This document shows positions 10,404-32,665 of a DNA stretch of 64,000 bases, piece after piece. Both the position numbers and the translations under genes were made by a program. Position 1 is the stretch's first letter. Each line of letters starts with the position of its first letter. Origin of the DNA: Vibrio sp. DW001 (GTDB taxonomy: Bacteria > Pseudomonadota > Gammaproteobacteria > Enterobacterales > Vibrionaceae); the NCBI RefSeq assembly GCF_029016285.1, contig NZ_CP091975.1, forward strand, positions 2,170,001-2,234,000, written 5' to 3'. The notes beneath the pieces are model-generated. The model was not told the origin of the DNA and made no database searches. It saw nothing but the letters and a program-made list of their open reading frames with translations.

Positions 10404-11318
10404 TCACATTCTGATATGAGTACCGGACGAACCGTTCATTATTTCGAGAGCTTTGTACAGATCACCAATGTGGCCAATACCTTTTGATCTTTCTGCAAAC
10501 AGGCAACATGCATCAACCTTTGGCCCCATAGAGCCAGCTGCAAATTGATAACTGCGCATCGTCGCCACAGTTTCATCATATAACTTTTCTTGAGTTGGTT
10601 TACCCCAATCAATGCAAACATTTTCTCCCGCAGTCAAAATAAGAAGATCATCTGCATTCAACTCCTGTGCGATCAACGCTGCTGTCATGTCCTTATCAAT
10701 AACGGCTTCAAAACCAGTGTAGTAACCTTTTTTATCTTTAATTACTGGTACACCACCGCCACCGCCACAGATAACCAAATGATCTTTTTCAAGTAAACTG
10801 CGTATAGCATCAATTTCAATAATATCTTTTGGCATAGGGGACGGAACAACACGACGCCATTTGTCACCGTCAGGCTTAATAACCCAATTGTTTGCTTCTG
10901 CTAATTGTGTCGCCTCTTCTTTTTCATAAACCGGACCAATAAACTTACTTGGCTCTTTAATGGCAGGATCATTCTTATCAACCTCAACCTGAGTAAGAAT
11001 AGTTTCAATATTCATATCTGGAAGTTGTTGTTTTAGTTTCTGTTGTAACAAATAGCCTATCATTCCCTGTGTTTCAGCGCCCAAAACATCGAACGGGTAT
11101 GGTGGGCAGCAGTCCTGATATGCAAGATTTTGTAGAGCCAACAACCCAACTTGTGGCCCATTTCCATGAACCAGCACCAGTCGGTATTTTTCGTGCAGTT
11201 TAGCAAGTGCAGTGGCTGTAACTTCTATACTATTCTTTTGATTTTCACAGCTCATAATTTCGCCTCTTTGAAGCAAGGCATTCCCACCAATAGCGACAAC
11301 TAACGTTGGTTTAATCAT
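10404..11318 (-). CDS. arcC: Carbamate kinase
   Basis: Carbamate kinase converts carbamoyl phosphate and ADP to carbamate and ATP, the energy-yielding last step of arginine or citrulline fermentation. The 304-residue length fits the family. Visible motifs are the N-terminal VVAIGGNAL, VHGNGPQVG, CGGGGGVPV, the DKDMTAALIAQEL segment that follows the mobile region, and the C-terminal GSMGPKVDACCLF. GGAG precedes the ATG at good spacing. The gene runs opposite to the carbamoyltransferase, with 413 bases of AT-rich divergent promoter between them, and lies upstream of argR on the same strand. No arginine deiminase gene accompanies it. Confidence 0.95.
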   Translation of the reverse strand: MIKPTLVVAIGGNALLQRGEIMSCENQKNSIEVTATALAKLHEKYRLVLVHGNGPQVGLLALQNLAYQDCCPPYPFDVLGAETQGMIGYLLQQKLKQQLPDMNIETILTQVEVDKNDPAIKEPSKFIGPVYEKEEATQLAEANNWVIKPDGDKWRRVVPSPMPKDIIEIDAIRSLLEKDHLVICGGGGGVPVIKDKKGYYTGFEAVIDKDMTAALIAQELNADDLLILTAGENVCIDWGKPTQEKLYDETVATMRSYQFAAGSMGPKVDACCLFAERSKGIGHIGDLYKALEIMNGSSGTHIRM

Positions 11319-11731
11319 TTTTATCTCCGGTTTATTGTATTTCCTGTATTGAATCTTATATTTAAATATAGAAACTAAAACGTGACGAACATCCTAAATT
11401 TATATTATTTTAAAAATATTAATATAAATTTAATATTTAACGCCTCTATATCTAGATTCAATAGATAACTATTCACTCTGCATTTAAATACAATATTAAT
11501 AAAAATTTAAATTACACAATAAATACAAAATATCTTTATTATACAATTAGTTATAATGACAGTAATGTTTTTACTAATTATATTTTTATTTTTGTGAACG
11601 CATTCAAATATAAATTAAGTTATCGGGGTAACATACTCAACAAATGATAGAAAACAAAAATCACATGTACATTAATTAATAACCACCATTTTAAATAAAG
11701 TTTTTAATTAATTAATTTATAAGGGATACAA
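11319..11731. promoter_or_regulatory. Divergent arcC / arcB promoter region with ARG-box-like and CRP-like sites
   Basis: The 413 bases are very AT-rich with no coding frame. TGCATTTAAATACA at 11479-11492 has the dyad spacing of an ARG box and would fit control by the neighbouring ArgR. TGTGA-N6-TCAAA at 11593-11608 differs by one base from the CRP consensus, about 125 bases before the carbamoyltransferase start. Both calls are by eye. Confidence 0.5.
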
Positions 11732-12736
11732 ATGGCTTTTAATCTTCGCAATCGTAACTTTCTTAAGTTACTTGATCTATCTACTCGTGAAATCCAGCAT
11801 CTTATTGACCTTTCTGCAGACCTTAAAAAGGCTAAGTATTCAGGTACAGAAAAGCCCCGTCTGCGAGGCAAAAATGTTGCACTAATTTTTGAAAAAAGCT
11901 CTACCCGTACTCGCTGCGCATTTGAAGTTGCCGCTTTCGATCAAGGTGCTCAGGTAAGCTATATCGGTCCATCAGGTTCTCAAATCGGTCACAAAGAATC
12001 AATGAAGGATACTGCACGAGTATTGGGTCGCATGTATGACGGTATTGAGTACCGTGGGTTTGGGCAGAACATTGTTGAAGAACTGGGAGCCTATGCAGGT
12101 GTACCCGTGTGGAACGGACTAACTACAGAGTTCCACCCTACTCAAATTCTGGCTGATTTCTTAACAATGTTAGAGCATGGTAGAGGTAAGAATTTACAGG
12201 AAATGACATTTGCCTACTTAGGTGACGCGAGAAACAACATGGGCAACTCACTTTTGGTCGGGGCGGCCAAGATGGGGATGGAAATTCGCATGGTTGCACC
12301 AAAAGAGTTCTGGCCAGATGAAAAGCTTGTAGAAGAGTGCCGTGCCATTGCCAAAAGCACCAATGCAAAAATTGTGATGACCGAAAATGTTCAGGAAGGT
12401 GTTCAAGGATGTGACTATCTGTATACCGATGTATGGGTCTCTATGGGGGAATCAAAAGAAGCATGGGATGAGCGTGTAAATATGATGACACCATATCAGG
12501 TCAATATGAATGTAATCGAAATGACTGGTAATCCACACGTAAAATTCATGCACTGTCTTCCCGCTTTCCATAACGATGAAACTATCGTTGGTGCAGAAGT
12601 GGCTGAAAAATATGGCATGAAAGGCCTAGAAGTCGATGAAGAAGTATTTGAGTCCGAATACTCGATTGTCTTCGACGAAGCGGAAAACCGTATGCACACA
12701 ATTAAAGCAGTTATGGTAGCCACGTTAGGTGACTAA
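11732..12736 (+). CDS. arcB: Ornithine carbamoyltransferase, probably the catabolic form
   Basis: This enzyme interconverts ornithine plus carbamoyl phosphate and citrulline plus phosphate. The 334-residue protein carries the carbamoyl-phosphate loop SSTRTR (Ser57-Arg61) and the ornithine-site motif HCLPAFH (His274, Cys275), which separates OTC from aspartate carbamoyltransferase. The sequence between them follows the ArgF/ArcB pattern throughout. A good ribosome binding site (AAGGGAT) precedes the ATG. Its position between divergent carbamate kinase and a YfcC carrier points to citrulline phosphorolysis for ATP rather than arginine synthesis (inference). ArgF and ArcB cannot be separated with certainty by eye. 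Confidence 0.93.
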
Positions 12737-12747
12737 TATTGTAATAG

Positions 12748-12777
12748 CCCGACAGCAAAAACTGTCGGGTGTTTTTT
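12748..12777 (+). terminator. Intrinsic terminator or attenuator after the carbamoyltransferase
   Basis: CCCGACAG and CTGTCGGG form a perfect 8-bp stem around a 6-base loop, followed two bases later by six T. It lies in the 53-base gap before the YfcC carrier, so it may only partly stop transcription and reduce carrier expression. Confidence 0.8.
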
Positions 12778-12789
12778 GGAGATCAAATT

Positions 12790-14319
12790 ATGTCAAGCGT
12801 AGCCGTTCCTCGACCAAAATTTAGAGCTTTTCCTAGCGCTTTCACCATTTTATTTGTTATTACTCTGCTGGCTGTAGCGTGTACATGGCTCATCCCAGCG
12901 GGGGCTTATTCAAAACTTACCTATAGTTCAGAAACCGGTATGTTGTCGATAGCGACGCCTTCCGGTGAAGTCTCAGCTATTGCAGCTACTCAGGGTGAGC
13001 TAGATAAGCTAGGAGTAAACATAAAGGTAGAACAATTTACCGGCGGTATTATCCGCAAGCCTATTGCTGTTCCGGACACCTATGAGCGTGTAGCTCCTGT
13101 GCATAAGGGAATTGGAGATGTAACCAAAAGCATGGTTGAAGGTACCATAGAAGGTGCTGATGTGATTGTATTCATTCTGGTTCTTGGTGGCATGATCGGT
13201 GTTGTGAATGCAACGGGTGCATTTAATTCCGGTCTGATAGCACTTTCTAAGAAAACCAAAGGGCGTGAGTTCACATTGGTATTCTCAGTGTGTTTGGTAA
13301 TGGCACTGGGTGGTACTACATGCGGTTTGGAAGAAGAAGCCGTTGCATTTTACCCCATTCTAGTCCCGATCTTCTTATCACTTGGGTATGACTCTATCGT
13401 CTGCGTAGGTGCAATATTTCTTGCTGGTTCAATGGGCACCACATTCTCTACTATCAATCCGTTCTCAGTAGTTATTGCGTCTAATGCTGCTGGTATTCCA
13501 TTTACTGAAGGAATCGAGTTCAGAGTATTTGGTTTGATCGTAGGTTTTGCAGTCGTAGTTAGCTACATGTACTGGTATTGCAAAAAAGTAAAGGCTGATC
13601 CAAGTTTTTCATACACCTACGATGACCATGAAGAGTTCGAAGCTCGCTACATGAATGATGTTGATATGGACCATGAAATTCCATTTACATTGCGCCGTAA
13701 AGTCATTCTTACCATGTTTGCTTTAGCCTTCCCTCTAATGATTTGGGGTGTATCGGTGGGAGGATGGTGGTTTCCGACGATGGCAGCGTCCTTTCTAGCG
13801 ATTACCATCGTTATTATGTTTATCTCTGGGCTATCAGAGAAAAAATTGATGGACTCGTTTACAAAAGGCGCATCAGAGCTAGTTGGCGTATCGCTAATCA
13901 TTGGTCTTGCCCGAGGTGTAAACCTGGTTCTAGAGAACGGTATGATCTCCGATACTATCCTGTTCGCAGCCTCAGACTTAGTGTCTGGAATGGAAGGTGG
14001 CGTATTTATCGTGGTTCAAATGCTGGTTTTTGCCTTGCTTGGTTTTATCGTTCCATCATCCTCGGGTCTGGCTGTACTTTCTATGCCTATTATGGCACCG
14101 CTAGCTGATACCGTTGGTATCCCCCGCGAAATCGTTGTGTCCGCTTATAACTGGGGGCAGTATGCAATGCTATTCCTAACCCCAACAGGCTTGGTACTTG
14201 CGACATTGCAAATGCTAGGTATGTCTTACAACAAGTGGCTGAAATTTGTATGGCCGATGGTCTTATTCGTACTTGGCTTTGGCGCACTAATGTTGGTTAT
14301 TCAAGTTGCAATGATCTAG
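12790..14319 (+). CDS. YfcC-family transporter (putative arginine/citrulline-ornithine carrier)
   Basis: This 509-residue integral membrane protein belongs to the YfcC/C4-dicarboxylate anaerobic carrier-like group. It has an N-terminal helix ending WLIPAGAYSKL and about 12 hydrophobic segments. Typical features are GGTTCGLEEEAVAFYPILVP, GSMGTTFSTINPFSV and PSSSGLAVLSMPIMAPLAD. Translation should start at the ATG at 12790, preceded by TGGAGA; an upstream in-frame ATG at 12769 overlaps the terminator stem. Members beside arc genes act as amino-acid carriers, so uptake of citrulline or arginine with ornithine exit is the natural hypothesis here. Substrate is inferred from context only. Confidence 0.85.
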   Translation: MSSVAVPRPKFRAFPSAFTILFVITLLAVACTWLIPAGAYSKLTYSSETGMLSIATPSGEVSAIAATQGELDKLGVNIKVEQFTGGIIRKPIAVPDTYERVAPVHKGIGDVTKSMVEGTIEGADVIVFILVLGGMIGVVNATGAFNSGLIALSKKTKGREFTLVFSVCLVMALGGTTCGLEEEAVAFYPILVPIFLSLGYDSIVCVGAIFLAGSMGTTFSTINPFSVVIASNAAGIPFTEGIEFRVFGLIVGFAVVVSYMYWYCKKVKADPSFSYTYDDHEEFEARYMNDVDMDHEIPFTLRRKVILTMFALAFPLMIWGVSVGGWWFPTMAASFLAITIVIMFISGLSEKKLMDSFTKGASELVGVSLIIGLARGVNLVLENGMISDTILFAASDLVSGMEGGVFIVVQMLVFALLGFIVPSSSGLAVLSMPIMAPLADTVGIPREIVVSAYNWGQYAMLFLTPTGLVLATLQMLGMSYNKWLKFVWPMVLFVLGFGALMLVIQVAMI

Positions 14320-14476
14320 GGAATGTCTCAAGTAAAGAGAAGCGGTAGCTTTTTATCAACGCCTTGTTTGATTTTAAATCACCCGCTCTCTTTTCCTTTA
14401 CCAATTAGTATTCACTTCACATAACGTTCCAACTAAAACTTACACAAAAATTTATTCATATAGGAGATATACTGAA

Positions 14477-15742
14477 ATGAGTGGCGATATCATAAAACTT
14501 TCAAGAAATACCGAAAATGCACCAATAGACTCATTTTCTACCCAGACTGTCGCATTTTCTCACTACAATAATATTTCGGCTCAACTGCCTGTCGATCTTA
14601 AGACCGGTGAAATTGTCGTAGGTGGTGTAGAAGAGCAGTCAAGGCAGTGTTTGACAAACATTAAAAATATTGTAGAAAGTGTCGGTCATGGCATGTATGA
14701 CGTTATAAGAATCAATGTATACCTCAAGAATATCTCAGATATTGACGCGGTAGACGCCGTTTATACAACCTTCTTCCAAAACTACTTTCCTACTCGTACT
14801 ACACTCGCTGTTGCAGCACTGCCAATGAAGGGGGCTTTAGTACAAATGGATGCCGTAATTTCAAACGGAGAAGGAACACACCCACAAGATCCTTGTGAAC
14901 TTATCAAGTTGGTCAGAAATACAAAGAATGCACCAAGCAACTCTCTATCAACCCAGACGATCGCTTTTTCCCACTACAACCATATTTCGGGTCAATTACC
15001 GGTTGATCCTAAAAGCGGCGTTATCGTAACAGGTGGAGCAAAAGAGCAGACCGGCCAGTGCCTAAAGAATATTAAGTCAATTTTAGAAGCTATCGACGTT
15101 CCTTTTGATGATATTGTTAAAATCAATATTCATGTCAGAAATCTCACCGATATTGAGCTAGTGGACAAGGTGTATACCACATTCTTCCCGGACTCGGCTA
15201 TCGCAAGAACGGTAGGTTATGTCCCTGCACGCTCAATCGTTATTGCGTCTGGTTTACCTATGAACGCTTTGGTACAAATTGATGCTACGGTATCTCATGG
15301 AGATGGCACCCCACCCCAAGAAGTAGAAGACAGACATGGACTCGCTATCAGACTCAATAACTCAGAAAATGCACCAATAAGCGCTCTATCCACGCAAACC
15401 GTCGCTTTTTCTCACTACAACAATATTTCGGCTCAACTCCCAGTAGATCCTGAAAGAGATGACATTGTATCTGTTGGTGTAAAAGAGCAGACAATGCAAT
15501 GTCTGAACAATATCAAGTCGATTGTAGAAAGCGTTAACCACGTTATGGATGATATCGTTAAAATCAATATCCAACTTACCAATATTGAAGATCTAGATAC
15601 GGTAAACGAAGCTTACATAACCTTCTTTAAAGGTGAGCTGCCTGCCAGAACTGTCATTGGTGTTTCAGCGAACCCTATGGATGCTCTGGTACAAATTGAC
15701 GCCATTGTTTCAAACGCTGAGAGTACGCCTCCGCCAGCATGA
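14477..15742 (+). CDS. Triple-domain RidA/YjgF-family protein
   Basis: RidA proteins are ~130-residue subunits of homotrimers that hydrolyse reactive enamines and imines. This 421-residue protein holds three complete copies in one chain, at about 1-135, 145-280 and 290-415. Each begins N-(T/S)-(K/E)NAP, continues STQT-(V/I)-AFSHYN-ISGQLPVDP (Ser or Ala before QLP) and ends P-A/T-RT ... ALVQ-(I/M)-DA. The Arg that binds substrate carboxylate in RidA is present in each copy (PTRT, PARS or IART, PARTV). The Glu of the usual VEIEA is Asp in all three. Copy 2 has an extra ~8 residues before its conserved end. AGGAG lies upstream of the ATG. The gene follows the carrier after 157 bases, so it likely belongs to the same module. 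Its substrate is unknown. Confidence 0.88.
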   Translation: MSGDIIKLSRNTENAPIDSFSTQTVAFSHYNNISAQLPVDLKTGEIVVGGVEEQSRQCLTNIKNIVESVGHGMYDVIRINVYLKNISDIDAVDAVYTTFFQNYFPTRTTLAVAALPMKGALVQMDAVISNGEGTHPQDPCELIKLVRNTKNAPSNSLSTQTIAFSHYNHISGQLPVDPKSGVIVTGGAKEQTGQCLKNIKSILEAIDVPFDDIVKINIHVRNLTDIELVDKVYTTFFPDSAIARTVGYVPARSIVIASGLPMNALVQIDATVSHGDGTPPQEVEDRHGLAIRLNNSENAPISALSTQTVAFSHYNNISAQLPVDPERDDIVSVGVKEQTMQCLNNIKSIVESVNHVMDDIVKINIQLTNIEDLDTVNEAYITFFKGELPARTVIGVSANPMDALVQIDAIVSNAESTPPPA

Positions 15743-15819
15743 TAAAAACTAAACTCAACACTGACACGATGTAAGATTTGTGCAACTCATGCATGGACAT
15801 TGTGGGTAAATCTAGGGTA

Positions 15820-15855
15820 CTTCGTAACATTGCACTATTAGGTAATGTTACGAAG
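15820..15855. repeat. Perfect 12-bp inverted repeat
   Basis: CTTCGTAACATT (15820-15831) and AATGTTACGAAG (15844-15855) flank a 12-base loop. There is no T-run on either side, so it is not a classic terminator. It lies between the RidA gene and the convergent mog gene and could be an operator, a processing hairpin or a remnant element. Confidence 0.5.
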
Positions 15856-15976
15856 CGAAGTAGAATTAGTGATTTTTATGACGGCTAAAAGCTATCTGAG
15901 GTTCTGTGAACGCACCAGTGTCGCTTCTCGTTTATGTCATATTCTATCTAGTCTGTCATGCTGCCATCCCTACCAG

Positions 15977-16510
15977 TTATTTCTGTTTAGGACGGAAAGG
16001 CTTTATCACCTCTTCGTTGCATTTCAGGTAAGGACCTTCCATCAGGTCGATACAATAAGGTATCGCAGGGAATACCGCATCCAGACATTCACGAATAGAT
16101 TTCGGTTTTCCAGGTAGGTTTACAATTAAAGTATCATTGCGAAGACCGGCGGTCTGGCGTGACAAAATAGCAGTTGGAACGAATTTCAGCGATTCAGCAC
16201 GCATGAGTTCGCCAAAACCAGGCATCATACGATCGCATATGGCTTCTGTTGCTTCAGGAGTGACATCACGCTTTGCCGGCCCTGTGCCTCCCGTTGTAAC
16301 AATCAGACTACAATTCTGTTTATCAGCCATGTTGATCAATGTGGCTTCAATAACACCCTGTTCATCTGGGATCACTTCGTAGATAGGTTCCCACTCAGAA
16401 ATTAAATATTCATTCAGAGTTTCAATAATTGCCTTACCAGAAATGTCTTCATATACACCAGCGCTTGCTCGGTCACTGACCGTAACAATACCGATTTTAG
16501 CTTTTGTCAT
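15977..16510 (-). CDS. mog: Molybdopterin adenylyltransferase MogA
   Basis: MogA adenylates molybdopterin before molybdate insertion in molybdenum cofactor synthesis. The 177-residue protein carries the MoCF-binding signature VTTGGTGPAKRDVTPEAT, then MPGFGELMR, PTAILSRQTAG and NLPGKPKSI, matching MogA along its whole length. It is a stand-alone gene with no other moa/moe gene nearby. Upstream on the same strand is the RraA-like gene, separated by a terminator, so mog probably has its own promoter. The assignment is secure at family level. Confidence 0.93.
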   Translation of the reverse strand: MTKAKIGIVTVSDRASAGVYEDISGKAIIETLNEYLISEWEPIYEVIPDEQGVIEATLINMADKQNCSLIVTTGGTGPAKRDVTPEATEAICDRMMPGFGELMRAESLKFVPTAILSRQTAGLRNDTLIVNLPGKPKSIRECLDAVFPAIPYCIDLMEGPYLKCNEEVIKPFRPKQK

Positions 16511-16591
16511 TTGTTATCCCTTTGGCCAAATTCTTGTTGAAGGCCAAGTGTAATGAATTAAGTAGAGAGGATAAACCTTGGAGAATAAAAA

Positions 16592-16619
16592 TCCCTGCTC
16601 ATTTCGTCATGATCAGGGA
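16592..16619 (-). terminator. Intrinsic terminator of the RraA-like gene
   Basis: TCCCTGCTCAT and ATGATCAGGGA form an 11-bp stem with one mismatch around a 6-base loop. Read on the minus strand it is followed by TTTTT. It lies between the RraA-like gene and mog. Confidence 0.8.
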
Positions 16620-16659
16620 CTCAACGTTCTTTACCTAACCTAACTATACCAATGGCGGG

Positions 16660-17139
16660 TTAAACGATCTTCTCAGTGCTAACAATAACACCGTCGGTAT
16701 CTGCATACAGATAGTCGCCTGTTTTCACTTCAATGCCACCAAACGACAACGGGACATCTCTCTTGCCAGAGGTAACAGGAATAGATTTTCTTGAACAGGT
16801 GCCCAAAGCATAAAGAACAACCGGGATGTCTTTGATTTGAAACGTATCGCGAATATAACCATTTACGATGATGCCAGCGTAGTGATTGTTATGTGCAAAC
16901 TTCATTAGGTTTTCACCAACAACAGCAAAATATTCTTGGTCTACATCAACAACGACAACCTTACCTGTGCCATCTTCATCTCTTAGAAGCGTGATCAGAT
17001 CTGAATTGTTTTTGTTTAACTTAATGGTGATCACCTCACCCTGACATTTATCAGCACCACCAAAGTTTTGGTATCCAGCGCCCAAAACACGTGTCCTTTC
17101 TGGGTACTCATCACAGATATCTGCGGTAAAAAATTTCAT
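16660..17139 (-). CDS. RraA-family protein (RNase E regulator-like or HMG/CHA aldolase-like)
   Basis: This 159-residue protein follows the RraA/aldolase fold: N-terminal TADICDEY, the FGG motif near residue 27, VVVVDVD, then GIIVNGYIRD and the C-terminal GDYLYADTDGVIVS. Family members either inhibit RNase E (RraA proper) or, when they keep the metal and substrate pair in the G-x-x-RD motif, act as 4-hydroxy-4-methyl-2-oxoglutarate aldolase or oxaloacetate decarboxylase. Here the Arg-Asp pair is present (YIRD), whereas E. coli RraA has Gln in the Asp place. An enzymatic role is therefore plausible. The gene is divergent from the glutamate mutase operon. A divergent pair may share regulation, but this is inference. 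Confidence 0.75.
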   Translation of the reverse strand: MKFFTADICDEYPERTRVLGAGYQNFGGADKCQGEVITIKLNKNNSDLITLLRDEDGTGKVVVVDVDQEYFAVVGENLMKFAHNNHYAGIIVNGYIRDTFQIKDIPVVLYALGTCSRKSIPVTSGKRDVPLSFGGIEVKTGDYLYADTDGVIVSTEKIV

Positions 17140-17425
17140 AAATCATCCTTGTTTTTTATCAATTTTAGACTTGTAAGCTCGTTTCGCATTCTAGCATTCA
17201 TATATAGCCAAGTAACCCCAATATACTGGCTCAGTAAAAAATTATTGGTACTTGGACACCCACTCTTTTTACATCTTTTTTTAGTGTGGTATGCTGCAAG
17301 CAACTGGATCAAAAAAGATGTCCAGACGCCTAATGAACATTGGTATAAATACGAGCGGAATTTCAATTCAGCCATCCAAACAGAAAGACAGACAATCCTA
17401 ATACGGAAATCAGGAAAGGTTTTTT

Positions 17426-17839
17426 ATGAAAGTAGTGACTGGAGTAGTTGGCAACGATATCCACGTTGTGGCCAACCGACTCATTGAACTATCCCTCGAA
17501 GCTAGAGGGTATCAAGTTTTTAATTTGGGTGTGAATACGCACCTAGAAGAATTCTTCGATGCGGTTGTGGAGACCGGCGCCGAAGTACTGCTCATCTCTT
17601 CACTTAATGGTGAAGCAGAAGGATGGAGTCGAGAAGTCAGAGCGCTGAAATCTCAATATAAAGGATTGGATGACGTCATCATGATGATTGGTGGCAACCT
17701 AACAGTGGGTGCTGGTGACGCAGATGAAATCGTTAAAAAATACAAAAAATATGGCTTTGACTTGGTTTGTCACCAAATCGACCTTAATACTGGCCTTGAC
17801 CTTTTAGAACAGTTTATAGAAAAGAGAGGTCAAGCATGA
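17426..17839 (+). CDS. glmS: Glutamate mutase sigma subunit (methylaspartate mutase S, B12-binding)
   Basis: The small subunit binds adenosylcobalamin for rearrangement of L-glutamate to 3-methylaspartate. The 137-residue Rossmann-type protein begins VVTGVVGNDIHVVAN: the Asp and the cobalt-ligating His of the DxHxxG motif are present, but the Gly is Ala. The next two B12 loops are visible as SSLNGEAEG and GGNLTVG. AGGAAAGG precedes the ATG at a suitable distance. It is the first gene of a four-gene operon in which each stop overlaps the next start; the overlap with glmE is ATGA. A 286-base gap separates it from the divergent RraA-like gene and must hold the promoter. Confidence 0.92.
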   Translation: MKVVTGVVGNDIHVVANRLIELSLEARGYQVFNLGVNTHLEEFFDAVVETGAEVLLISSLNGEAEGWSREVRALKSQYKGLDDVIMMIGGNLTVGAGDADEIVKKYKKYGFDLVCHQIDLNTGLDLLEQFIEKRGQA

Positions 17840-19200
17840 GCCTGCTTCAAGAAGAACGTGAGATAATTCTCAGCAATGAGTACGTCGATACCTTTGATTT
17901 TGATGAAGTAAATGAATTCGTCACAAACGCTAGCAAAGAACTGTTTATCTCTCACCATTTTAAGAAGAAAGAGAAGATGCTCGTTCAGCCACGCGGTGGT
18001 TTCCCAACTTATAAAAAGCAGTTCGCTCTGAATGAGTTTTTCGTTAACGCTAACGTCGATGTGCTCCCTCTTACGATAGACTCAAATACTCGTCTTAACG
18101 ATTATGGCACGGCGAAAAAAATGCTTCGCCTTAGTGAAGAAAATGACGTAGATATGCTTAACGGCTATCCGTTGGTGAACCACGGCTATCGCACCACGCG
18201 TAAAATGATCACGCATTTCAACAAACCGGTCAGTCTACGACACGGTACACCCGATGCGAGGCTACTTATCGAAACGGCCATTGCTTCAGGTATTTTTGAA
18301 ATTGAAGGCGGTCCAATCACCTATCTGTTGCCCTATTCAAAGAACTTCCCATTAGACAAAGCGTTCATGTATTGGAAATATGTAGAACGTGTTTGCGCGA
18401 ATTATTCTAAGCTTAATGAACCGATTAATCGCGAATCGTTTGGCCCATTAACGGCCACTTTGGTCCCACCTTCTATAACTATCGTTATCCAACTGTTGGA
18501 GATGCTGCTTTCATTGGAGGAAGGGGTTAAGTCTTTTTCTGTGTCGTTCGCGCAGCAAGGTTCAATGAATCAAGATATTGTTACTGGCGCGGTAATTAAG
18601 AAATTAGCCAAACATTACGCAGAAGCGATTGGCTGTGGCGATGCCAGTATTCATTTGGTTTATCACCAATGGATGGGGGCTTTCCCAACCAACAAAAGCT
18701 ATGCAGAACAGTTAATTAACATGTCGACGGTTATTGCATCCATGGTCGGCGCGGACAAAATTATCACCAAAACACGTGAAGAAGCCGTTGGTATTCCAAC
18801 GAAAGAAGCGAATGCAAAGACCGTTGCCGATACACAATATACACTCCGAATACTCAACGGGTTGCCTAATATCGTTGATGAGCAAGAAGAAGAGATATTA
18901 ACAGCCGAAGTGATGGCAATTATGGATGCAGTGTTTAACGACCCTGCCGACACGCTGTGGCGGAAAGCCTTTAACTGCATCAAGTGCGGGATAATCGATG
19001 TGCCATTTTCTCCGCATATTATTAACCACAACAAGATGATAACTATTCGTGATGCCAACAAAAATATCCGAATCATCGACCGAGGTGGCGTACCAATCCC
19101 AGATCGCTGTTTTGAATATGAGCGCTCACAATGCGACCTCAATAAAGACACCACCAGCATCGTTAACGACATAATTCATGATATAGGCATTATGCAATGA
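17836..19200 (+). CDS. glmE: Glutamate mutase epsilon subunit (methylaspartate mutase E)
   Basis: This is the TIM-barrel catalytic subunit of adenosylcobalamin-dependent glutamate mutase. At 454 residues it is close to the ~480 of the Clostridium enzyme. The three arginines that grip the substrate carboxylates are recognisable by motif: Arg53 in VQPRGG, Arg86 in NTRLND and Arg135 in LRHGTPDAR. Also kept are the Glu and two Tyr of IEGGPITYLLPYSK, the segments FGPLTATLVPPS and VYHQWMGAFP, and the adenosine-site Lys-Glu segment GIPTKEANA. The protein should be catalytically competent on glutamate (inference from residues). It overlaps glmS and glmL by four bases each. No methylaspartate ammonia-lyase gene follows, unlike the fermentation pathway. 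Confidence 0.93.
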   Translation: MSLLQEEREIILSNEYVDTFDFDEVNEFVTNASKELFISHHFKKKEKMLVQPRGGFPTYKKQFALNEFFVNANVDVLPLTIDSNTRLNDYGTAKKMLRLSEENDVDMLNGYPLVNHGYRTTRKMITHFNKPVSLRHGTPDARLLIETAIASGIFEIEGGPITYLLPYSKNFPLDKAFMYWKYVERVCANYSKLNEPINRESFGPLTATLVPPSITIVIQLLEMLLSLEEGVKSFSVSFAQQGSMNQDIVTGAVIKKLAKHYAEAIGCGDASIHLVYHQWMGAFPTNKSYAEQLINMSTVIASMVGADKIITKTREEAVGIPTKEANAKTVADTQYTLRILNGLPNIVDEQEEEILTAEVMAIMDAVFNDPADTLWRKAFNCIKCGIIDVPFSPHIINHNKMITIRDANKNIRIIDRGGVPIPDRCFEYERSQCDLNKDTTSIVNDIIHDIGIMQ

Positions 19201-20402
19201 GCCAGAACGTAGACAAACTATTTATCGATATCGGTAGTACCTACTTTAAGGTGTCCGATTCAAAACAGATTGAGCAGCATTTCCGAGACTTCAACAAAGA
19301 TATTCTTGATGATTTGATGCACAAGTGCGGCTCACGAGTCAGCCAGTATGAGAAAGAAAATGTCCATATTTGCTCGTCCGCGAATGGCGGTTTAAGCACG
19401 TTAATTATCGGCGTCACAAACTCCTTCTCACTCAAATATGCTACGAATATTGCGTTTAACTCCGGCATCAACATCATTGATACCATTCTCTACCAAAACA
19501 TCGCTGATTATTCGATTCCTAGTGACTTGGTAGACGTTGTGATTGTTGTGGGAGGTATTAACGCGAATGGCGGTATCTTTGGCGAGCCACTCTATCGCTA
19601 TTTGGAGCAGCTAAACTATTCCAACATAGTCTTCGTAGGTAACGAACCGGACGCCCTAACGCTCTCGGAAAAAGTGGACAGTTTGGTCACCTTACCGAAC
19701 ATTGTCGACGATCGATTGCATATTGTTGAAGATAACCTTAAAGAGTATCTCACCAATCTTTATCAACTCGATATTGAAGGTAAAGAAGATATCAAGGGTC
19801 TATACCAGGTCACCTCTAATCAGATCTACTCGACACCCTATATCGTTAACCAAGCGTTACCTTATGTCGATGCGAGTTTTTCTGTTGTCGACCCATTTAT
19901 CTTGCTTGATATCGGTGGCGCAACGACAGATATTCATTACTCCAAAGACCTCGTTATTGACGGCAACATCGTGACAGAAAACGAGTACGACCGTCTGGTC
20001 TTTAAAAAACTCGGGGTCTATAAATCTAAACAGTCTTTGATCTTCGCTGCACAAAACAATGAATTCGTTTATGAGTTGTTGATGCACCTAAAAGTCACTG
20101 AGAATATCTTTGAAGAGCAAAGTGAAAAAGCAACGAAGATTCTGATGCAGCTTTCCATCTTTTTGGTCTTGTGCAAAATTTCACACTATCGAAAAGCGTA
20201 TATTAATCTCAAGTTATTGGCGATTAACTCTATTGTGATCACTGGGGGAATTACCAAAGTGCTCTCATCCGAAGAGATAGAAGACATCATCGCCTTTTTC
20301 TATAAAAAAATTATGACGTCCGACCATAAGCCCGTCACCATTCTAGACAGCAATTATGATATTTGGACTCTTGGTGCAAAAGGAAAATTAGAATGTCAAT
20401 AA
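19197..20402 (+). CDS. glmL: GlmL/MutL-type glutamate mutase accessory (reactivating) protein
   Basis: MutL proteins have an ASKHA (actin/Hsp70-like) ATPase fold and are thought to reactivate or support the B12 mutase. The 401-residue protein shows the phosphate-1 motif FIDIGSTYFKV near the N-terminus, VVVIVVGGINANGG, the phosphate-2 motif LLDIGGATTDIHY and a C-terminal SIVITGGITKVLSS. It is encoded directly after the epsilon subunit with a 4-base overlap (ATGA) and ends 10 bases inside the ligase gene. Its presence argues that the mutase is used under conditions where cobalamin is damaged, such as microaerobic growth (inference). Confidence 0.88.
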   Translation: MSQNVDKLFIDIGSTYFKVSDSKQIEQHFRDFNKDILDDLMHKCGSRVSQYEKENVHICSSANGGLSTLIIGVTNSFSLKYATNIAFNSGINIIDTILYQNIADYSIPSDLVDVVIVVGGINANGGIFGEPLYRYLEQLNYSNIVFVGNEPDALTLSEKVDSLVTLPNIVDDRLHIVEDNLKEYLTNLYQLDIEGKEDIKGLYQVTSNQIYSTPYIVNQALPYVDASFSVVDPFILLDIGGATTDIHYSKDLVIDGNIVTENEYDRLVFKKLGVYKSKQSLIFAAQNNEFVYELLMHLKVTENIFEEQSEKATKILMQLSIFLVLCKISHYRKAYINLKLLAINSIVITGGITKVLSSEEIEDIIAFFYKKIMTSDHKPVTILDSNYDIWTLGAKGKLECQ

Positions 20403-21964
20403 ACTGTATTCGAAGCCTACTAGAAAGCGCCGTTGAGACGCATGCCGATAAAACCGCCATCGTCTTGGACGACAGTCAACTCACCTACGCTGAATTGTTC
20501 AAAAAGGTGAATCAAGTTGCGCTGTATTTAAAGGAACTTGGCCTCCCTAAAAATACCCGAATTGGTATCTATTCCAATAAACGCATCGAGCAGATGATTG
20601 CGGATCTCGCTGTACTTTCAACCGACTATATCTTGGTACCGATGAGTAAAATGCTTAAGCCTGAACAGGTTAAGTACATCATCAAAGATTGTGATATCAA
20701 GTGTATTATTACCGATAATATGAAGTTAGAAAGCATTGAAGAGATCGATTTTGACGGCCATGTTATCTCTTATGATACCGCCAATAAAGAGATCGCCTCT
20801 TTTGAAGAGATATACAAATACTACAACAAGCCCTATGAGTGCGATATAAGTGGCCACGATTCAGCGGTCATCACTTACTCCTTCGGTCTTTCCGGAACAC
20901 CTAAAGGTATTGTTATCTCGCATCGTAATCTAATCGATTCCGCGAGAGTCGTTTCTCAGTATCTAAAACTTGAAACCGATGACGTTATCTCCGGAGTGTT
21001 GTTCTTCAATCTAGATTACGGCCTAAACCAACTATTTTGTACCCTAATTAAGAAAGCGACACTCGCTATGCACCGCTTTATTCTGCCGGAAGAGTTCTTC
21101 AACCATCTGATAGACGACAAAGTGACGGTGCTCCCCGTCATGCCCGTCTATATTTCCCAAATGTTTGATGAAGAATCAACTCGTATTCCAAGTGCAGAAC
21201 TGTTTGATCGAGTGAAAACCATTACCTCTTCAGGCGGTAACGTCACCGCTAGAATGATAGACGACTGCAAGCGCACTTTCCGTAATGCCGACTTCTATTC
21301 GATGCACGGTCTCACCGAGGCGTTCCGATCCACTTATCTTGACCCCTCACAGGTACAGATTCGCCCTAATTCTATAGGTAAGCCGATACCCGACGTAGAG
21401 TTATATGTGATAAACGAAGATGGGAAAGAGTGCGCACCACGCGAAGTCGGTGAACTTATCCACCGTGGCGGTTATATCTATAAAGGTTACTGGAATGCAC
21501 CAGAAGAGACGGCCGAACGCTTTAAGTCTGTCTCAATACTGAAGGATGTTATCAACCTAGAGGGCCAACTTGTCGATGAGACCGTTGTTGCCACAGGTGA
21601 TTACGTCTATAAAGACGAAGAGGGTTATTTCTACTTCGTTTCTCGTAACGACGACATGATAAAAACTCGAGGTTACCGCGTCTCTCCTTTTGAAGTGGAG
21701 TCTGTCGTTGAGAAAAACATCCCCGCCATCGATCGTTGTGCCGTATTTGGATTAGAGAATGAGCTTATCGAAGAAGAGATTGTTTTGGTCTACTCTGCGC
21801 CAAGTCAGATAAGTGAAACAGAGATCCTGTTTGAACTAAACAAACACCTTGCCTCTTATATGATTCCTAACAAAGTGGTTTATAAGAAATTTATGCCGCT
21901 AATGCAAAACGATAAGAATCAAGTAAACAAAGAAGCATTGAAGCGGGATCTTTCTGCTGTTTAA
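20393..21964 (+). CDS. AMP-forming acyl/aminoacyl ligase (ANL superfamily) linked to glutamate mutase
   Basis: ANL enzymes activate a carboxylate with ATP and pass it to CoA or a carrier-protein thiol. The 523-residue protein shows core motifs in order: TYAEL, a modified phosphate loop TYSFGLSGTPKG (usually TSGSTGTPKG), the A5 motif MHGLTEA, the A7 motif ATGDY, the hinge SRNDDMIKTRGYRVSPFEVE and a C-terminal Lys in QVNKEAL at the catalytic position. ATG at 20393 is chosen because AAGGA lies upstream and it overlaps glmL tightly; an ATG 30 bases earlier has no such site. Co-translation with glutamate mutase suggests its substrate is 3-methylaspartate or a derivative, as for VinN in vicenistatin biosynthesis. 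No carrier protein or synthase gene is present here. The substrate is inference. Confidence 0.82.
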   Translation: MSINCIRSLLESAVETHADKTAIVLDDSQLTYAELFKKVNQVALYLKELGLPKNTRIGIYSNKRIEQMIADLAVLSTDYILVPMSKMLKPEQVKYIIKDCDIKCIITDNMKLESIEEIDFDGHVISYDTANKEIASFEEIYKYYNKPYECDISGHDSAVITYSFGLSGTPKGIVISHRNLIDSARVVSQYLKLETDDVISGVLFFNLDYGLNQLFCTLIKKATLAMHRFILPEEFFNHLIDDKVTVLPVMPVYISQMFDEESTRIPSAELFDRVKTITSSGGNVTARMIDDCKRTFRNADFYSMHGLTEAFRSTYLDPSQVQIRPNSIGKPIPDVELYVINEDGKECAPREVGELIHRGGYIYKGYWNAPEETAERFKSVSILKDVINLEGQLVDETVVATGDYVYKDEEGYFYFVSRNDDMIKTRGYRVSPFEVESVVEKNIPAIDRCAVFGLENELIEEEIVLVYSAPSQISETEILFELNKHLASYMIPNKVVYKKFMPLMQNDKNQVNKEALKRDLSAV

Positions 21965-22037
21965 TAATACCAAACGAAGTAAGATTGTGACCAACATGAT
22001 TGTCACTCCGCCGACCATCAAAAAAGTCATAAATAAA

Positions 22038-22063
22038 AAAGCCACCTGCAAACAGGTGGCTTT
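22038..22063. terminator. Bidirectional terminator between ligase and DUF748 genes
   Basis: AAAGCCACCTG and CAGGTGGCTTT form a perfect 11-bp stem around CAAA, flanked by A-rich sequence on the left and TTT on the right. It lies between convergent genes. Confidence 0.85.
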
Positions 22064-22092
22064 GAATAACCCGATAAGACCCCCTCTATACT

Positions 22093-25000
22093 CTAACCGG
22101 CATCAATCGTCATCAAAGCCTGTCTCTGCTCAGTTTTAAGTTTGCTCTTACTATCAAGAATAAAGACACGACCGGGGTCTATCTCATTTTCAATTAAGAA
22201 TGTTTTAACCGCTCTTGCTCTCTCTTCCGCAAGGCTACCCAAATCGGTATTGCTGATCGTCTGAGCATTGAGCAATTGGTTATACATACCAATATGCAGT
22301 GTTGTCGTAATCTGTTCTGGAATAACCTCAACGCCTTCATTTGAATCGATTAAGACTTGTTCAACTTTCATTCGTTCTTCATTTACGTCTAGTTTCAGTT
22401 CTTGCACAAATAGTGCTTGCAGAGCATCGGGTAAAACACCCGTATTTGGTATTCGGCTTGCACTAAAATCTTCTGGTAATTCAGGTAAGCCGCTCGTCTT
22501 CAAAAGCTTGTTCTGTAGCCTCGTTTCTGCCAAAGCTCTGCTATCTTCTGCAAGCAATACTGCCCCTTCAACACTGATGCGTAGGTTAGGTCTCGCATTA
22601 AGGGCCTCAACAAGCTTTAATAATCGCTCTTGTCCCGGGGAATCTAACACTGAAATCCCTGCTTTATATTGAATCAGGTTGAGTTCTTCATCGCTGCCAA
22701 CTAAATTGGCAAGCAAAGAAAATGGTGCAGTAATCGCCTTGGTCACTATGTTTACCAGCGCCTTTAGAATAACACCACCAAAGCTAAACTCAGGGCTCTC
22801 TACGTCACCATTGACGTCAAATCCAAGATCAATAACACCATCGCCATCCTGAAGTAATCCAATGGCTAGAGTAACTGGCAGGCTTGTCGCCAACGATGAC
22901 TCACTCGGTTTACCTAGTATCAACTGGTCAACAACGACGTGATTAGTTCCCTTTAATCGATTATTTTCAAGGCGGTAGTTGATGTCGAGTGACAACTGCC
23001 CTTTATCGATATAATAGCCAGCGTATGTCCCAGAGTAAGGGTTAACCGAGGTTAACTCGACGCTATTCAAACTGAAATCCAGATCAAGATAGGGGGATTC
23101 AATAAGAGGGTTTATTTCTCCAACAAGCGAAACCGGCGCATATTTATCTATATTCCCTTTTATGTCGACTAACGCTTTGGTATCTGGTGTTGTAGAGATA
23201 TTCTTTATAAAGCCTTCTAAGGATTCAATACCCGATGCGAAGTTAGGCGTAAGTGAATAATCTGCATAAAACGCGGATCCATTAACTATCTGTATCTTTC
23301 CAATATCCACCGATAGGTCAGAACCATTTGTTTTATTCGACGTGGCGGTTTTCTGTTTGTCTTCCTGCGTTGTGTTTAATGTCGGTTGTGGCGTCGCCGA
23401 CTCAGTCTCTGTTGTTTCTGCGCCAGACTTAGAGACTGCACCAATATTTGTGCGTAAATCCTTGGCAACAATCACCTTGGCATAAGGCGTATTCAACAGA
23501 ATAGTTTTTATCTTAAGGCTGTTATCCGCCTGATCAACTATCAACGAATCGATAGACATTTGCGTCCATTTTAATAACGGCTCTTTTTGCAAGACATCTT
23601 TAATCAACAGTTGGTCTATCGCTACTTGCCCCTTATATACCGCTTTTCCTCGGCTGTTAGCAGAAAACCCCCCTTTCGTACTGAAGGAACCTTGACTCAA
23701 TATAATATTCAGATGTGGATCCAAATACGGTTGAAACTGAGCCAACTCCAGACCAGTTAATTGCACCTGACTGTCTAACTCCTGAGCTTTTATATCCAAT
23801 TTCCCCTGACTACTAAAGGTTCCCCGTGTACGACTAGGTTGCTTATTAATCTCTGAGGCAATCCCAAAATCAAATGTATAATCGACTGGAGCGCTAAGAT
23901 CACTACTTACCGGACCGACGCTAATGTTGAGTGGATGCACTCGCCAACGTACGCCACCACTTACCATTCCTTCTTTTAGGTTGATATCCGTCTGCTGCAT
24001 ATCAAATAAATTGAGTTGCACCAACCACTCTTTATCTTCCGCAACTGAACGCCGAGTCTCATCTGCACTCGATATCGACGTTTCTTTTTCCGTTGACGCT
24101 TCTTTGCCCGCTGAATCGTCCTTCACAATAGGCGGAGTATTTTTTACCTTAGCCGTGAAACGACGTTGTAAATCAAGTCCTTTATTACTCAGGTCACCGT
24201 CTATCCAAAGCCCCATTAACGAGAGCTTTTCTAGGTCAATACGTTGGGAAGTGGTATCAACTGATATGCCAGTAAGCTCTAGAGTGGGCAGTTTCAGTTT
24301 TGGTTGTTGCTTATAGTCGAAAATCACATCCGCTAAAGAAAATTGCCCCTGACTGGCAATAAATCCTAACTGTTCATTGTCTTGCTTAAGATGATAATTA
24401 GAAGCAAAACTCGTTTCACCGGAACTCAATTCGGCCTCAATAACATGGTCAGTAAACGGCCAAAGTGGTGCAAGTTGCAACTTGACTAAGCTGATATCAC
24501 CGCTGAATTCCAAAGGTTGGAGTTGAAACTGGCCGTCTATTTGCAACTTGCTTTGATCTATCCCGGTCATCCCCAAACGATAGATATTGGCGATTGAATT
24601 GATCGACGGTGTTTGTGTGTTGGATTCTGTCACTGTAGGCGCGGTCAATGTAAATGCGGTCGTATCCAGCTCACTGAGGTGAAAATTGATGTTCTGATAG
24701 CCAAGTTCTACTCCTGTCTGTTCGTCTTCAAAATCAACCTGACCATTGCTCAAACTTATAGAGTGTGTTTTTGCGGCAAACAGTTTATCGGACGTCGGTT
24801 TGTGTTCTTGTTCGTCTACGGCCGTGTCCATATCAGAGCTTGAATCAATTGCTTGCTTAGTCGTCAGCTTTTGGACTATGTCACTAAAATTGAAGGTCAT
24901 CTTTTCCTTCTCACCATTTAATCGAGCAAGAAAAATATAAGGGTTTTGAACCGTCAGGTATTCTAGGGTCGGCGTAAGACTAACGATACTTTGCCAAAAA

Positions 25001-30406: not shown

Positions 30407-32665
30407 TTATTTAATCATATTCTTATATTTTTCATAAAACTTTAATGATTCAACAATTTCTTTGTTGTTTTGTACTTTTGGATAAGTATGGTTTTTTTTA
30501 ACCCATGAAGTTTCCCAGTCAGCCATACTATTATAAAAGGCATTGGCTCTAAACCCTTCTCTTCCATAAACCATATCTAACCCCTCGTCAGAATATTGTT
30601 CATTATTTTCAAGTTTATCACTTAAAAAATTAAAGAACATTTCCCAGCGAGGTGCATAATATAAACTGATTAAACCAGACCATTCTCGCCAAGCATAATC
30701 AAATATTTTCATTTCCTCATCTCCTCCCCAAAGCGTAAGCAATTGCAAAGCATTATATTCATATAAATCAGCCTCGGTTGAATTTTTTGCCCAAGATCGT
30801 GCCTTTGTAACCCATTGTTCTAAACTGTACTCCTTTCGAGTAGCAACTAGTTGATCGACATCTTCAAGCAATACTAAAAATGCTAAGCTGTTTCTCTCGA
30901 ATGCAGACTTGTCTTTCGCTCTAAACGACTCAATAGTTCGTTTTTGATAATGCTGTGATAAATTCGACAATACTTGGCGGCCTATATCAACTACATCGAA
31001 CCTATAACCATCCGACTCGCCAAGTAATTCGTTATCAGCAAGTAATAATTGCCATGCCAATAATAAATCGGCTTCCTCATAAGGAATTTCTAAGCCTTCA
31101 TTAGGACCTGATTTCTTCACATCCAAAGCCGGTCTAGCTGCAATCATAGAACTTTTTTCGACACCGTCCGTACCTGCTTTGTATACCGTATTAAGCAATA
31201 TTTTCCACGCTTTAGTAGCATTTACAGTCGATTTTCCATATCGACGTTTAGTATAGTCTTTCAACCAGTATTCGATCTCAATTGAATTGCCTTCAGTCAA
31301 CATTTGCAGAGCCAAATCATAATAAACAGGATTTTGTCCAATACCTTCCATAAATAAACCAGAACCTACCGCATTTGGAGCGTCTTCTCGGATAGTCGTA
31401 AATTTATCTTGTGCAAGCAGTCTCAAATCACCATGTAAATTGATACGCCCACCAAAGTTATGCAATGAACCTACAATAAAAGGAAAACCCCAAAAGTTAT
31501 CATTTTTGACACGATTTCGGCCATCTAAATCAAGAACAACCAAATCTTTTTTAGGAACCGCTGTTGCGATAGGCTCACGAATATCCCAAGCTTGCATTAA
31601 CCAGACACTTTCCGGGTCATGTTGCTTGAATAATTGATGAATAGCAGCCCCGACATTACTTAGGTATTCGTCACCTTCTTTAGGAGGCTTTCCTTCATGG
31701 AAAGGATCAGCAGCAAATAAGTGATTGTCACCAAAAATATTTTTCTGTTGCGTTAAAAATATTTTGCCCATTTTTTGAAAAAGAGGATCAAGAGGGTCGA
31801 GCTGAGCGACTCCTTCAAAGCCAACCCAAGATTTTTGTTTAACAATTGCCGCCTCAGGAAATTTTTTTATCATTGCTCGTGGAACAAATCCTGAGAAACC
31901 TTGTTGAATAGGCATCATTCCTATGGCGCGTTGACGTTCAAGAATTTTCTGCCCCAGTAATTCATGACTGTCGATCCAACTTTTTGGTAAAGGTCCTGCA
32001 TGTTTCTCTATATTCTGCATCCATTGCCATGCAAAAAAAGCCGGCCCAACTAAAAATTCTCTTGCTTCAGCATCATTAAAATTCATCTCTAACAACGTGT
32101 TGTACCAAACAGCTTCAATGCCTACTACAGATAACGGCATATTAATGCCATTCATCGCAAGAAAATCGATACAGCTTTGCCAATCCTGCCAATCCCACCA
32201 CGGTGTAGAATAACTTAACGTTACATAATTGAAGAACACTCTATAATTCGCTTCTACAATTTTTGTAATTGGTCTCGAAACTTCCGGTAATTTTTGAGGT
32301 AAAGTAGTATTACTGCCATTCCAACTATAATGATAATTCACCTCGTTTTTGAGATAATGATGTAAAGCCATAGCAATGCTTACACCGCTATTACCTTGTA
32401 AAATAATTTTATTGTTTTTACCTTGTTTTACACTATAAATGTCCTTTGAGTTCTCTGTCTCAATAATTTTAGCTTCAAAAGTTTTTGCATGTATTTTACC
32501 AACAATACGTTCAATCAGATCGTTAGCCGCAACTAATTGCTCAGTTATTGGTACTTGTGAACGAATATTATACGAATTAAACTGCTGTTGCGGTTTCCCT
32601 TGCGCGTTAATAGGTGTGAGAATAACAGCAATTAAAACCGATATAACGTAAATAATCTGTTTCAT
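30407..32665 (-). CDS. Secreted alpha-N-acetylglucosaminidase (GH89, NAGLU-like)
   Basis: GH89 enzymes remove terminal alpha-linked N-acetylglucosamine, for example from heparan-type glycans or mucins. The 752-residue protein has a signal peptide (MKQIIYVISVLIAVILTPINAQG), an N-terminal alpha/beta domain, then the barrel with NYVTLSYSTPWWDWQDWQ, FLAMNGINMPLS, FAADPFHEGKPP and FMEGIGQNPVYYDL. The Glu residues in the last two motifs correspond to the catalytic acid/base and nucleophile by family pattern. A helical C-terminal domain completes the usual three-domain layout. AGGAGAG precedes the ATG. The gene is notably AT-rich compared with its neighbours and borders decayed insertion sequences, so it may have been acquired horizontally. 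The natural substrate is not known. Confidence 0.9.
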   Translation of the reverse strand: MKQIIYVISVLIAVILTPINAQGKPQQQFNSYNIRSQVPITEQLVAANDLIERIVGKIHAKTFEAKIIETENSKDIYSVKQGKNNKIILQGNSGVSIAMALHHYLKNEVNYHYSWNGSNTTLPQKLPEVSRPITKIVEANYRVFFNYVTLSYSTPWWDWQDWQSCIDFLAMNGINMPLSVVGIEAVWYNTLLEMNFNDAEAREFLVGPAFFAWQWMQNIEKHAGPLPKSWIDSHELLGQKILERQRAIGMMPIQQGFSGFVPRAMIKKFPEAAIVKQKSWVGFEGVAQLDPLDPLFQKMGKIFLTQQKNIFGDNHLFAADPFHEGKPPKEGDEYLSNVGAAIHQLFKQHDPESVWLMQAWDIREPIATAVPKKDLVVLDLDGRNRVKNDNFWGFPFIVGSLHNFGGRINLHGDLRLLAQDKFTTIREDAPNAVGSGLFMEGIGQNPVYYDLALQMLTEGNSIEIEYWLKDYTKRRYGKSTVNATKAWKILLNTVYKAGTDGVEKSSMIAARPALDVKKSGPNEGLEIPYEEADLLLAWQLLLADNELLGESDGYRFDVVDIGRQVLSNLSQHYQKRTIESFRAKDKSAFERNSLAFLVLLEDVDQLVATRKEYSLEQWVTKARSWAKNSTEADLYEYNALQLLTLWGGDEEMKIFDYAWREWSGLISLYYAPRWEMFFNFLSDKLENNEQYSDEGLDMVYGREGFRANAFYNSMADWETSWVKKNHTYPKVQNNKEIVESLKFYEKYKNMIK

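Follow-up and report, generated by a model that had tools for sequence, protein, structure and literature searches.

What becomes of 3-methylaspartate in a bacterium whose glutamate mutase genes are accompanied by an AMP-ligase homologue and not by methylaspartase? The question is raised by a locus of Vibrio sp. DW001 at positions 17426 to 21964 of the window, that is, of the whole 64,000-nucleotide stretch analysed here (contig NZ_CP091975.1, positions 2,170,001 to 2,234,000 of the forward strand; assembly GCF_029016285.1). A first-pass annotation of the locus had seen a glmS-glmE-glmL operon and a fourth gene for an AMP-forming ligase. The analysis reported here suggests that the genes belong to a conserved B12-dependent methylaspartate cassette that may lead to 2-oxobutyrate via transamination and decarboxylation by an RraA-type protein, with the ligase homologue as a non-activating binder or an altered enzyme. 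We hold this scheme as a whole tentatively, giving it somewhat less than an even chance.

The four genes lie on the forward strand and encode a GlmS-like cobalamin-binding subunit of 137 amino acids (aa; 17426..17839), a GlmE-like catalytic subunit of glutamate mutase (454 aa, 17836..19200), a divergent GlmL/MutL-like accessory protein (401 aa, 19197..20402) and an ANL (AMP-ligase) homologue with degenerate adenylation motifs (523 aa, 20393..21964, with its ATG at 20393). The four open reading frames and the overlaps of 4, 4 and 10 bases between successive genes were confirmed as first described; the accompanying phrase 'fused in translation' holds for the overlapping genes, but there is no fused protein. 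In Pfam, GlmS matched the B12-binding family PF02310, GlmE matched PF06368 (390.8 bits, 8.6e-117), GlmL matched PF13941 (73.7 bits, over the cut-off of 27) and the ligase homologue PF00501. Among NCBIfam models, GlmS scored 148.7 bits with NF002612, over the cut-off of 110, and 90.2 bits with TIGR01501, under the cut-off of 135.8, while GlmE (373.7 bits with TIGR01503, cut-off 390.1) and GlmL (61.4 bits with NF040745, cut-off 475) stayed under their equivalog cut-offs, GlmE being 38% identical to its counterpart in E. coli records.

The only relatives of GlmE in the PDB were glutamate mutase (6h9e/1cb7), and residues 42-432 align with the solved epsilon subunit. The claw arginines R66, R100 and R149 of the solved enzyme correspond to R53, R86 and R135 of the window protein, and E171, Y177, Y181, K326 and E330 correspond to E157, Y163, Y167, K312 and E316, so that all eight of the residues which we take to be catalytic are identical. 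Of the 59 GlmS copies no longer than 150 aa that were aligned, at least 97% keep the cobalamin-binding DxH, and the earlier observation that the B12 histidine and the three substrate arginines of the mutase are kept was thus borne out. The same GlmS/GlmE/GlmL set, with the same catalytic residues, makes up the glutamate mutase of Clostridium cochlearium and of enterobacterial records. A CobA/BtuR adenosyltransferase was found in seven of nine cassette genomes, that of DW001 included; both genomes that lack it are of Arcobacter type, and the search there covered no further families of adenosyltransferase. The residues argue strongly that GlmS and GlmE form a glutamate mutase that would make 3-methylaspartate from glutamate. 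As the first step of the proposed pathway, well supported by sequence, these subunits with adenosylcobalamin would turn L-glutamate into 3-methylaspartate, and GlmL would repair the enzyme.

The genome (5.46 Mb, two contigs) holds this single mutase of GlmE type. Since the mutase is of the same family as that of ordinary glutamate fermentation, its product could be passed to a methylaspartase encoded elsewhere. However, in the whole genome of DW001, the sole genome searched for it, the best methylaspartase match reached 25.1 bits, under the 27-bit cut-off, and fermentation via methylaspartase was rejected there unless a non-homologous lyase takes its part; we give it a very small chance indeed. 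The first-pass annotation had stated that methylaspartase was absent and that the locus did not serve glutamate fermentation, and had named methylaspartase genes elsewhere in the genome, in the same regulon, as evidence that would speak against its reading; such genes were looked for, none was over the cut-off, and both statements stand. In contrast to the known glutamate mutase systems, the cassette is without methylaspartase and has RraA-type and ANL partners instead.

These partners became apparent from two neighbourhood surveys, one in which neighbours were clustered in 84 loci and one in which the cassette genes were recounted by tblastn in 81 (80 from named genomes and the window). The scan of named genomes with GlmE used the best 80 of 212 relatives, and the neighbourhood counts accordingly describe close relatives, many of them metagenome-assembled genomes (MAGs); the E-value thresholds of the genome surveys (GlmE, RraA, ligase, aminotransferase and TIGR03099) were set by us. 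Among the best 80 relatives GlmE is 81-93% identical to the window protein, in Vibrio, Colwellia, Neptuniibacter, Amphritea, Haliea, Granulosicoccus, Sulfurimonas, Arcobacter and others. The order of an RraA-type gene on one strand and GlmS, GlmE, GlmL and the ligase on the other recurs in Gammaproteobacteria and Campylobacterota, in organisms that are unrelated and for the most part marine, and 64 of the 81 loci have a full copy of each of the five core genes. GlmS and GlmE are present in all 81 and GlmL in 77 (partial in three more, absent from one). The ligase is full in 75, cut by the contig end in L057, partial in L009 and absent from four, in which 111-773 bases remain past GlmE; the 77 loci that reach the ligase position thus comprise 75 with a full, one with a contig-cut and one with a partial ligase after the mutase genes. 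In the partial case, a Colwellia MAG (L009, 3454-4305), only ligase residues 1-284 match, though the contig continues. The RraA-type gene was full in 69 loci and cut at contig edges in two, and lay upstream on the opposite strand in 71/71; its distance from GlmE was below 900 bases in 64. The ten loci without it are eight of Campylobacterota type and two (L016, L027) with little sequence left of the mutase; L057, labelled just 'bacterium', was counted as Campylobacterota type and has a flank in common with L062. An AspC-like aminotransferase gene was full in 33 of the 81 loci, in all 33 upstream and on the same strand.

The gene order that the first-pass annotation had proposed to seek in other genomes is therefore conserved, and its four genes were correctly grouped, but its cassette was too short, the divergent RraA-type gene having been overlooked. 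Clusters of neighbours other than the six cassette genes were each found in nine or fewer of the 84 loci. Neighbours were judged by reading, without family models, and open reading frames under 70 aa were left uncalled; among the genes so read there were no carriers, polyketide synthase (PKS) or non-ribosomal peptide synthetase (NRPS) genes, methylaspartase or CoA-transferases, and the suggestion that carriers, PKS/NRPS genes or CoA-transferases might lie nearby thus found no support.

The genes also occur together at the level of whole genomes. In a survey of 61 genomes (that of DW001 and its relatives) cassette-type GlmE was present in three, and cassette-type RraA in the same three. Among 274 Gammaproteobacteria drawn evenly, four had cassette-type GlmE, and a cassette-type ligase (70-100% identity) was found in the same four and in no other, the next-best ligases being 33-39% identical and spread over 32 other genomes. 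Cassette-type RraA was found in two of the 274, both with GlmE; the remaining two GlmE genomes have a contig end within the cassette, and one of them shows the first 75 RraA residues, at 62.5% identity. Between loci, GlmE distances are correlated with the distances of the ligase (r 0.71, 75 loci), the RraA-type protein (0.70, 68 loci) and the aminotransferase (0.68, 33 loci), with 0 of 2000 permutations reaching the value in each case; organism kinship, for which the values are uncorrected, contributes to them too. The cassette is apparently shared across phyla through horizontal transfer. In ten Sulfurimonas loci (L016, L022, L023, L026, L027, L049, L055, L061, L067 and L082) GlmE is 85-91% identical to the Vibrio protein while the flanks differ, and these copies, though from MAGs, are likely to reflect recent transfer.

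The RraA-type protein of the window (159 aa, 16660..17139, reverse strand; PF03737, PRK09372) is a putative class II beta-keto-acid decarboxylase/aldolase. In the RraA/HMG-CHA aldolase superfamily D-X20-R-D is the rule for the metal/catalytic motif. The cassette protein has E76-X20-R97-D98, with E76, R97 and D98 invariant in 30 aligned copies; it has the fold and the acid-X20-Arg-Asp of HMG/CHA aldolase and RraA but constitutes a distinct subfamily, with Glu for Asp. Its AlphaFold2 (AF2) model has a predicted local distance difference test (pLDDT) score of 86.1 and matched RraA 3c8o best in Foldseek (E 2.1e-19, template-modelling (TM) score 0.94 by query length, 37% identity), with HMG/CHA aldolase 3noj at rank 15 (E 1.9e-10, TM 0.83 by query length, 20% identity). 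Arg97 equals Arg-123 of 3noj, provided that the match of 75-154 to 101-180 is ungapped. HMG/CHA aldolase also decarboxylates oxaloacetate, via a pyruvate enolate, and Arg-123 is essential for it (PMC5065237). The acid-X20-Arg-Asp of the cassette protein fits an active enzyme.

With RraA proteins as its best PDB sequence and fold matches, the protein might instead be only a regulator of the RNase E/DEAD-box type, in which case the product of the cassette would be 3-methylaspartate itself. The acid-X20-Arg-Asp is, however, kept here and absent in the E. coli regulator of RNase E, which has Ala/Arg/Gln at the positions of E76/R97/D98 (1j3l has Gly/Arg/Asp), and most of the 21 cassette genomes searched for RraA and threonine deaminase have a further RraA copy (none was found in G062 and G077); a purely regulatory role seems to us quite improbable. 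All 21 genomes contained cassette-type RraA, 53-100% identical to the window copy, the best copies being 65-100% identical except in two Arcobacter-type genomes (53 and 55%). Other full-length copies in the gammaproteobacteria with the cassette are 29-39% identical to that of the window, while second copies in three Arcobacter-type genomes reach 48-53%, and the assignment of copies there is uncertain. In Colwellia maritima (L014, 8910-9387; genome G064) the cassette RraA and threonine deaminase are both in pieces, perhaps through assembly frameshifts.

With HMG/CHA aldolase among its relatives, the RraA-type protein might also be a genuine pyruvate aldolase of class II, or act on another keto acid, the cassette then making or breaking a different branched acid. 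With every other gene confined to nine or fewer of the 84 neighbourhoods, no linked gene offers itself as a source or consumer of that acid, and we give this alternative a low probability. For the decarboxylase role preferred here, the glutamate mutase equilibrium, which favours glutamate, is of consequence. In the third step of the proposed pathway the RraA-type protein would strip the beta-carboxylate from 3-methyloxaloacetate, yielding 2-oxobutyrate and CO2, and would thereby pull the mutase equilibrium.

Between the first and the third step an AspC-type aminotransferase, cassette-encoded where the 33 linked genes occur and a housekeeping enzyme in DW001, would convert 3-methylaspartate to 3-methyloxaloacetate. 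The linked aminotransferases of L017 and L025 are of AspC/TyrB type (PRK09257, 556.5 and 575.8 bits, over 377), and the L017 enzyme matches AspC over the full length, with the two substrate arginines in place. DW001 itself has AspC-like relatives at 50% and 43%. The chain from glutamate through 3-methylaspartate and 3-methyloxaloacetate to 2-oxobutyrate is the simplest that uses the mutase, the aminotransferase and the RraA-type protein.

The ligase homologue, which the first-pass annotation had taken for an AMP-forming ligase, has abnormal catalytic motifs that it had overlooked. The nearest NCBIfam model is TIGR03098, of exosortase-associated ligases (443.3 bits, under the cut-off of 592.35). 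We compared 56 of the 75 full cassette ligases in a motif alignment with 28 sister ligases, namely those of 26 of the 32 other Gammaproteobacteria genomes with a match and of two plasmid records (Aureimonas and S. meliloti). The sisters have D-[YA]-G and GLTEAFRS in common with the cassette ligases, at 33-39% identity. The P-loop, YSFGLSGTPKG in the window protein (aa 162-172, 20876..20908, forward strand), reads YSFG[LMIV][ST]G in 75/75 cassette ligases, in contrast to YTSGSTG in 28/28 sisters. In the segment SMHGLTEAFRST (aa 303-314, 21299..21334, forward strand), which keeps Arg312, His replaces the Tyr that the sisters have before GLTE, as it does in all 75. In the A10 region (aa 502-516, 21896..21940, forward strand) there is a two-residue insertion, beside which the best-aligned residue is K in 43, R in 8, Q in 3 and E in 2 of the 56 ligases, whereas lysine is found in 28/28 sisters. 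The parts so changed normally serve the ATP phosphates, adenine and adenylation. Cassette ligases retain GLTEAFRS, Asp403 and Arg418, in common with the sisters, and 55 copies are 68-84% identical to the window protein. This identity, together with the loss of motifs in all copies, points to a function that has changed but is still under constraint, and not to decay. The AF2 model of the ligase was poor (pLDDT 62.8) and was left out of the fold comparison.

These changes bear on the claim that the cassette 'makes and activates' 3-methylaspartate. A ligase that activates 3-methylaspartate or a relative as its adenylate, for loading onto a carrier, CoA or an amine, like VinN in vicenistatin biosynthesis, would accord with the constant place of the ligase gene after the mutase genes in the 77 loci mentioned above and with Asp208 and Arg312, invariant in 56/56. 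In VinN (PMC11253843), D230 of the pocket is the counterpart of Asp208, the amino-binding Asp of A domains, and K330/R331 lie in the loop matching that of Arg312; the cassette ligase shares with VinN and the beta-amino-acid ANL ligases the amino-binding Asp, the adjoining aromatic residue and the basic loop residue. Two TIGR03098-type sisters also sit with carriers, that of Aureimonas adjoining an acyl carrier protein (ACP) and a pyridoxal phosphate (PLP) decarboxylase and that of S. meliloti near a phosphopantetheine protein. In contrast, the P-loop Ser/Thr is gone in 75/75 and the A10 lysine is not conserved, while 28/28 sisters keep both; activation as first proposed is not supported. Nor does the pocket single out methylaspartate: Asp208 and Arg312 are also present in 28/28 sisters and Tyr209 in 25/28 (Ala in 3/28), and Tyr209 plus Arg312 as a methylaspartate-specific VinN-like pocket was rejected. 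The PLP decarboxylase that partners the sister ligases (TIGR03099) was over its cut-off in 0/9 cassette genomes, all nine having matches of 191-234 bits, under the cut-off. No recurrent carrier protein or ACP was seen beside the ligase among neighbours read by eye, ACPs elsewhere in the genome not being searched, nor was a linked decarboxylase or PKS of the VinN kind. In Arcobacter-type loci the ligase gene is followed by one of 91 aa, which was rejected as a carrier because its product, with CxxCH, resembles a small cytochrome c. We regard a VinN-like ligase as unlikely.

Judging from its motifs, the ligase homologue is probably an amino-acid binder that does not adenylate its ligand, and a regulatory or scaffolding amino-acid binder, or an enzyme with an altered reaction, would be more likely than ATP activation of 3-methylaspartate. 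Loss of motifs is not proof of inactivity, and the unusual residues may still adenylate. A more specific proposal, possible though doubtful, is that the protein, whose amino-acid pocket and hinge are retained, would serve the adenosylcobalamin enzyme as its own amino-acid-binding partner or as an allosteric gate, or be a non-adenylating catalyst, in a new cross-phylum pathway from methylaspartate to 2-oxobutyrate.

One Streptomyces-type plasmid mutase locus with annotation was available for comparison, and no VinN-like neighbour was found at this single locus. On the plasmid of Streptomyces sp. NBC_01343 (L091, 11537-16455) a pair of genes for a cobalamin-dependent protein and methylaspartate mutase is followed by a gene annotated as transporter substrate-binding, and then by aspartate-semialdehyde dehydrogenase and aspartate kinase genes; the last two suggest that 3-methylaspartate is phosphorylated and reduced there.

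Several observations weigh against the chain to 2-oxobutyrate. The aminotransferase is adjacent in only 33/81 loci and absent from the cassette in the window, and the cassette-type enzyme was found in 13/21 cassette genomes. The eight Campylobacterota-type loci without RraA in their flanks show weaker linkage, and in two such genomes the two best RraA copies are similar (55/48% and 53/49% identity to that of the window). The motif is not specific to the cassette, as three of five aligned PDB RraA proteins (3c8o, 2pcn and 1vi4) have Asp-X20-Arg-Asp; its acid in the cassette protein is Glu, not Asp; and no RraA-family enzyme has been demonstrated to decarboxylate 3-methyloxaloacetate. The ANL protein has no job in the chain. 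Threonine deaminase, finally, was matched in 21/21 cassette genomes (17 over the cut-off, one of these in two pieces), so that isoleucine supply seems not to need the cassette; replacement of a missing threonine deaminase as its sole purpose was rejected.

The divergent intergenic region (17140..17425) contains one promoter-like match at 17268-17295 on the forward strand, and such matches across 16500-22200 showed no excess over shuffled sequence. No Rfam family was found in 14200-22300 at E up to 1. Intergenic 8-mers gave a weak common element (ATTCTAGC/GCTAGAAT) in 20 of 67 regions. A palindromic terminator-like hairpin (22038..22063) lies between the convergent ligase and DUF748 genes. Elsewhere in the window, 14477-15742 (forward strand) encodes a single protein with three tandem RidA domains (Ribonuc_L-PSP, PF01042), which is not a recurrent cassette neighbour; 10404-14319 holds an amino-acid-kinase-family gene, ornithine carbamoyltransferase and a YfcC-like DcuC-family antiporter, like a catabolic arginine/citrulline set; and 30407-32665 (reverse strand) encodes an Alpha-N-acetylglucosaminidase (NAGLU) homologue, here in a Vibrio.

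A glutamate mutase route to 2-oxobutyrate and isoleucine is itself known and has a MetaCyc entry. To our knowledge no decarboxylase gene has been assigned to it and it includes no ANL protein. In the present case a mutase is likewise at hand, as are a candidate beta-keto-acid decarboxylase and an aminotransferase of aspartate type, with the ANL protein and threonine deaminase present in addition. One source lists the pathway through glutamate mutase, with Abramsky 1962, as a known way to 2-oxobutyrate (PMC7476758). The individual parts are thus known, and their combination, an RraA-type protein with glutamate mutase and a non-canonical ANL protein, seems new; we did not find it in print among the open-access titles and beginnings of abstracts listed, which is not proof of novelty.

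If the scheme is true, it would provide candidate genes for what follows glutamate mutase in an old B12-dependent route to 2-oxobutyrate and a metabolic role for an RraA-family protein. It would also present a conserved, strongly constrained case of an ANL protein without canonical adenylation motifs that is linked to a radical B12 enzyme.

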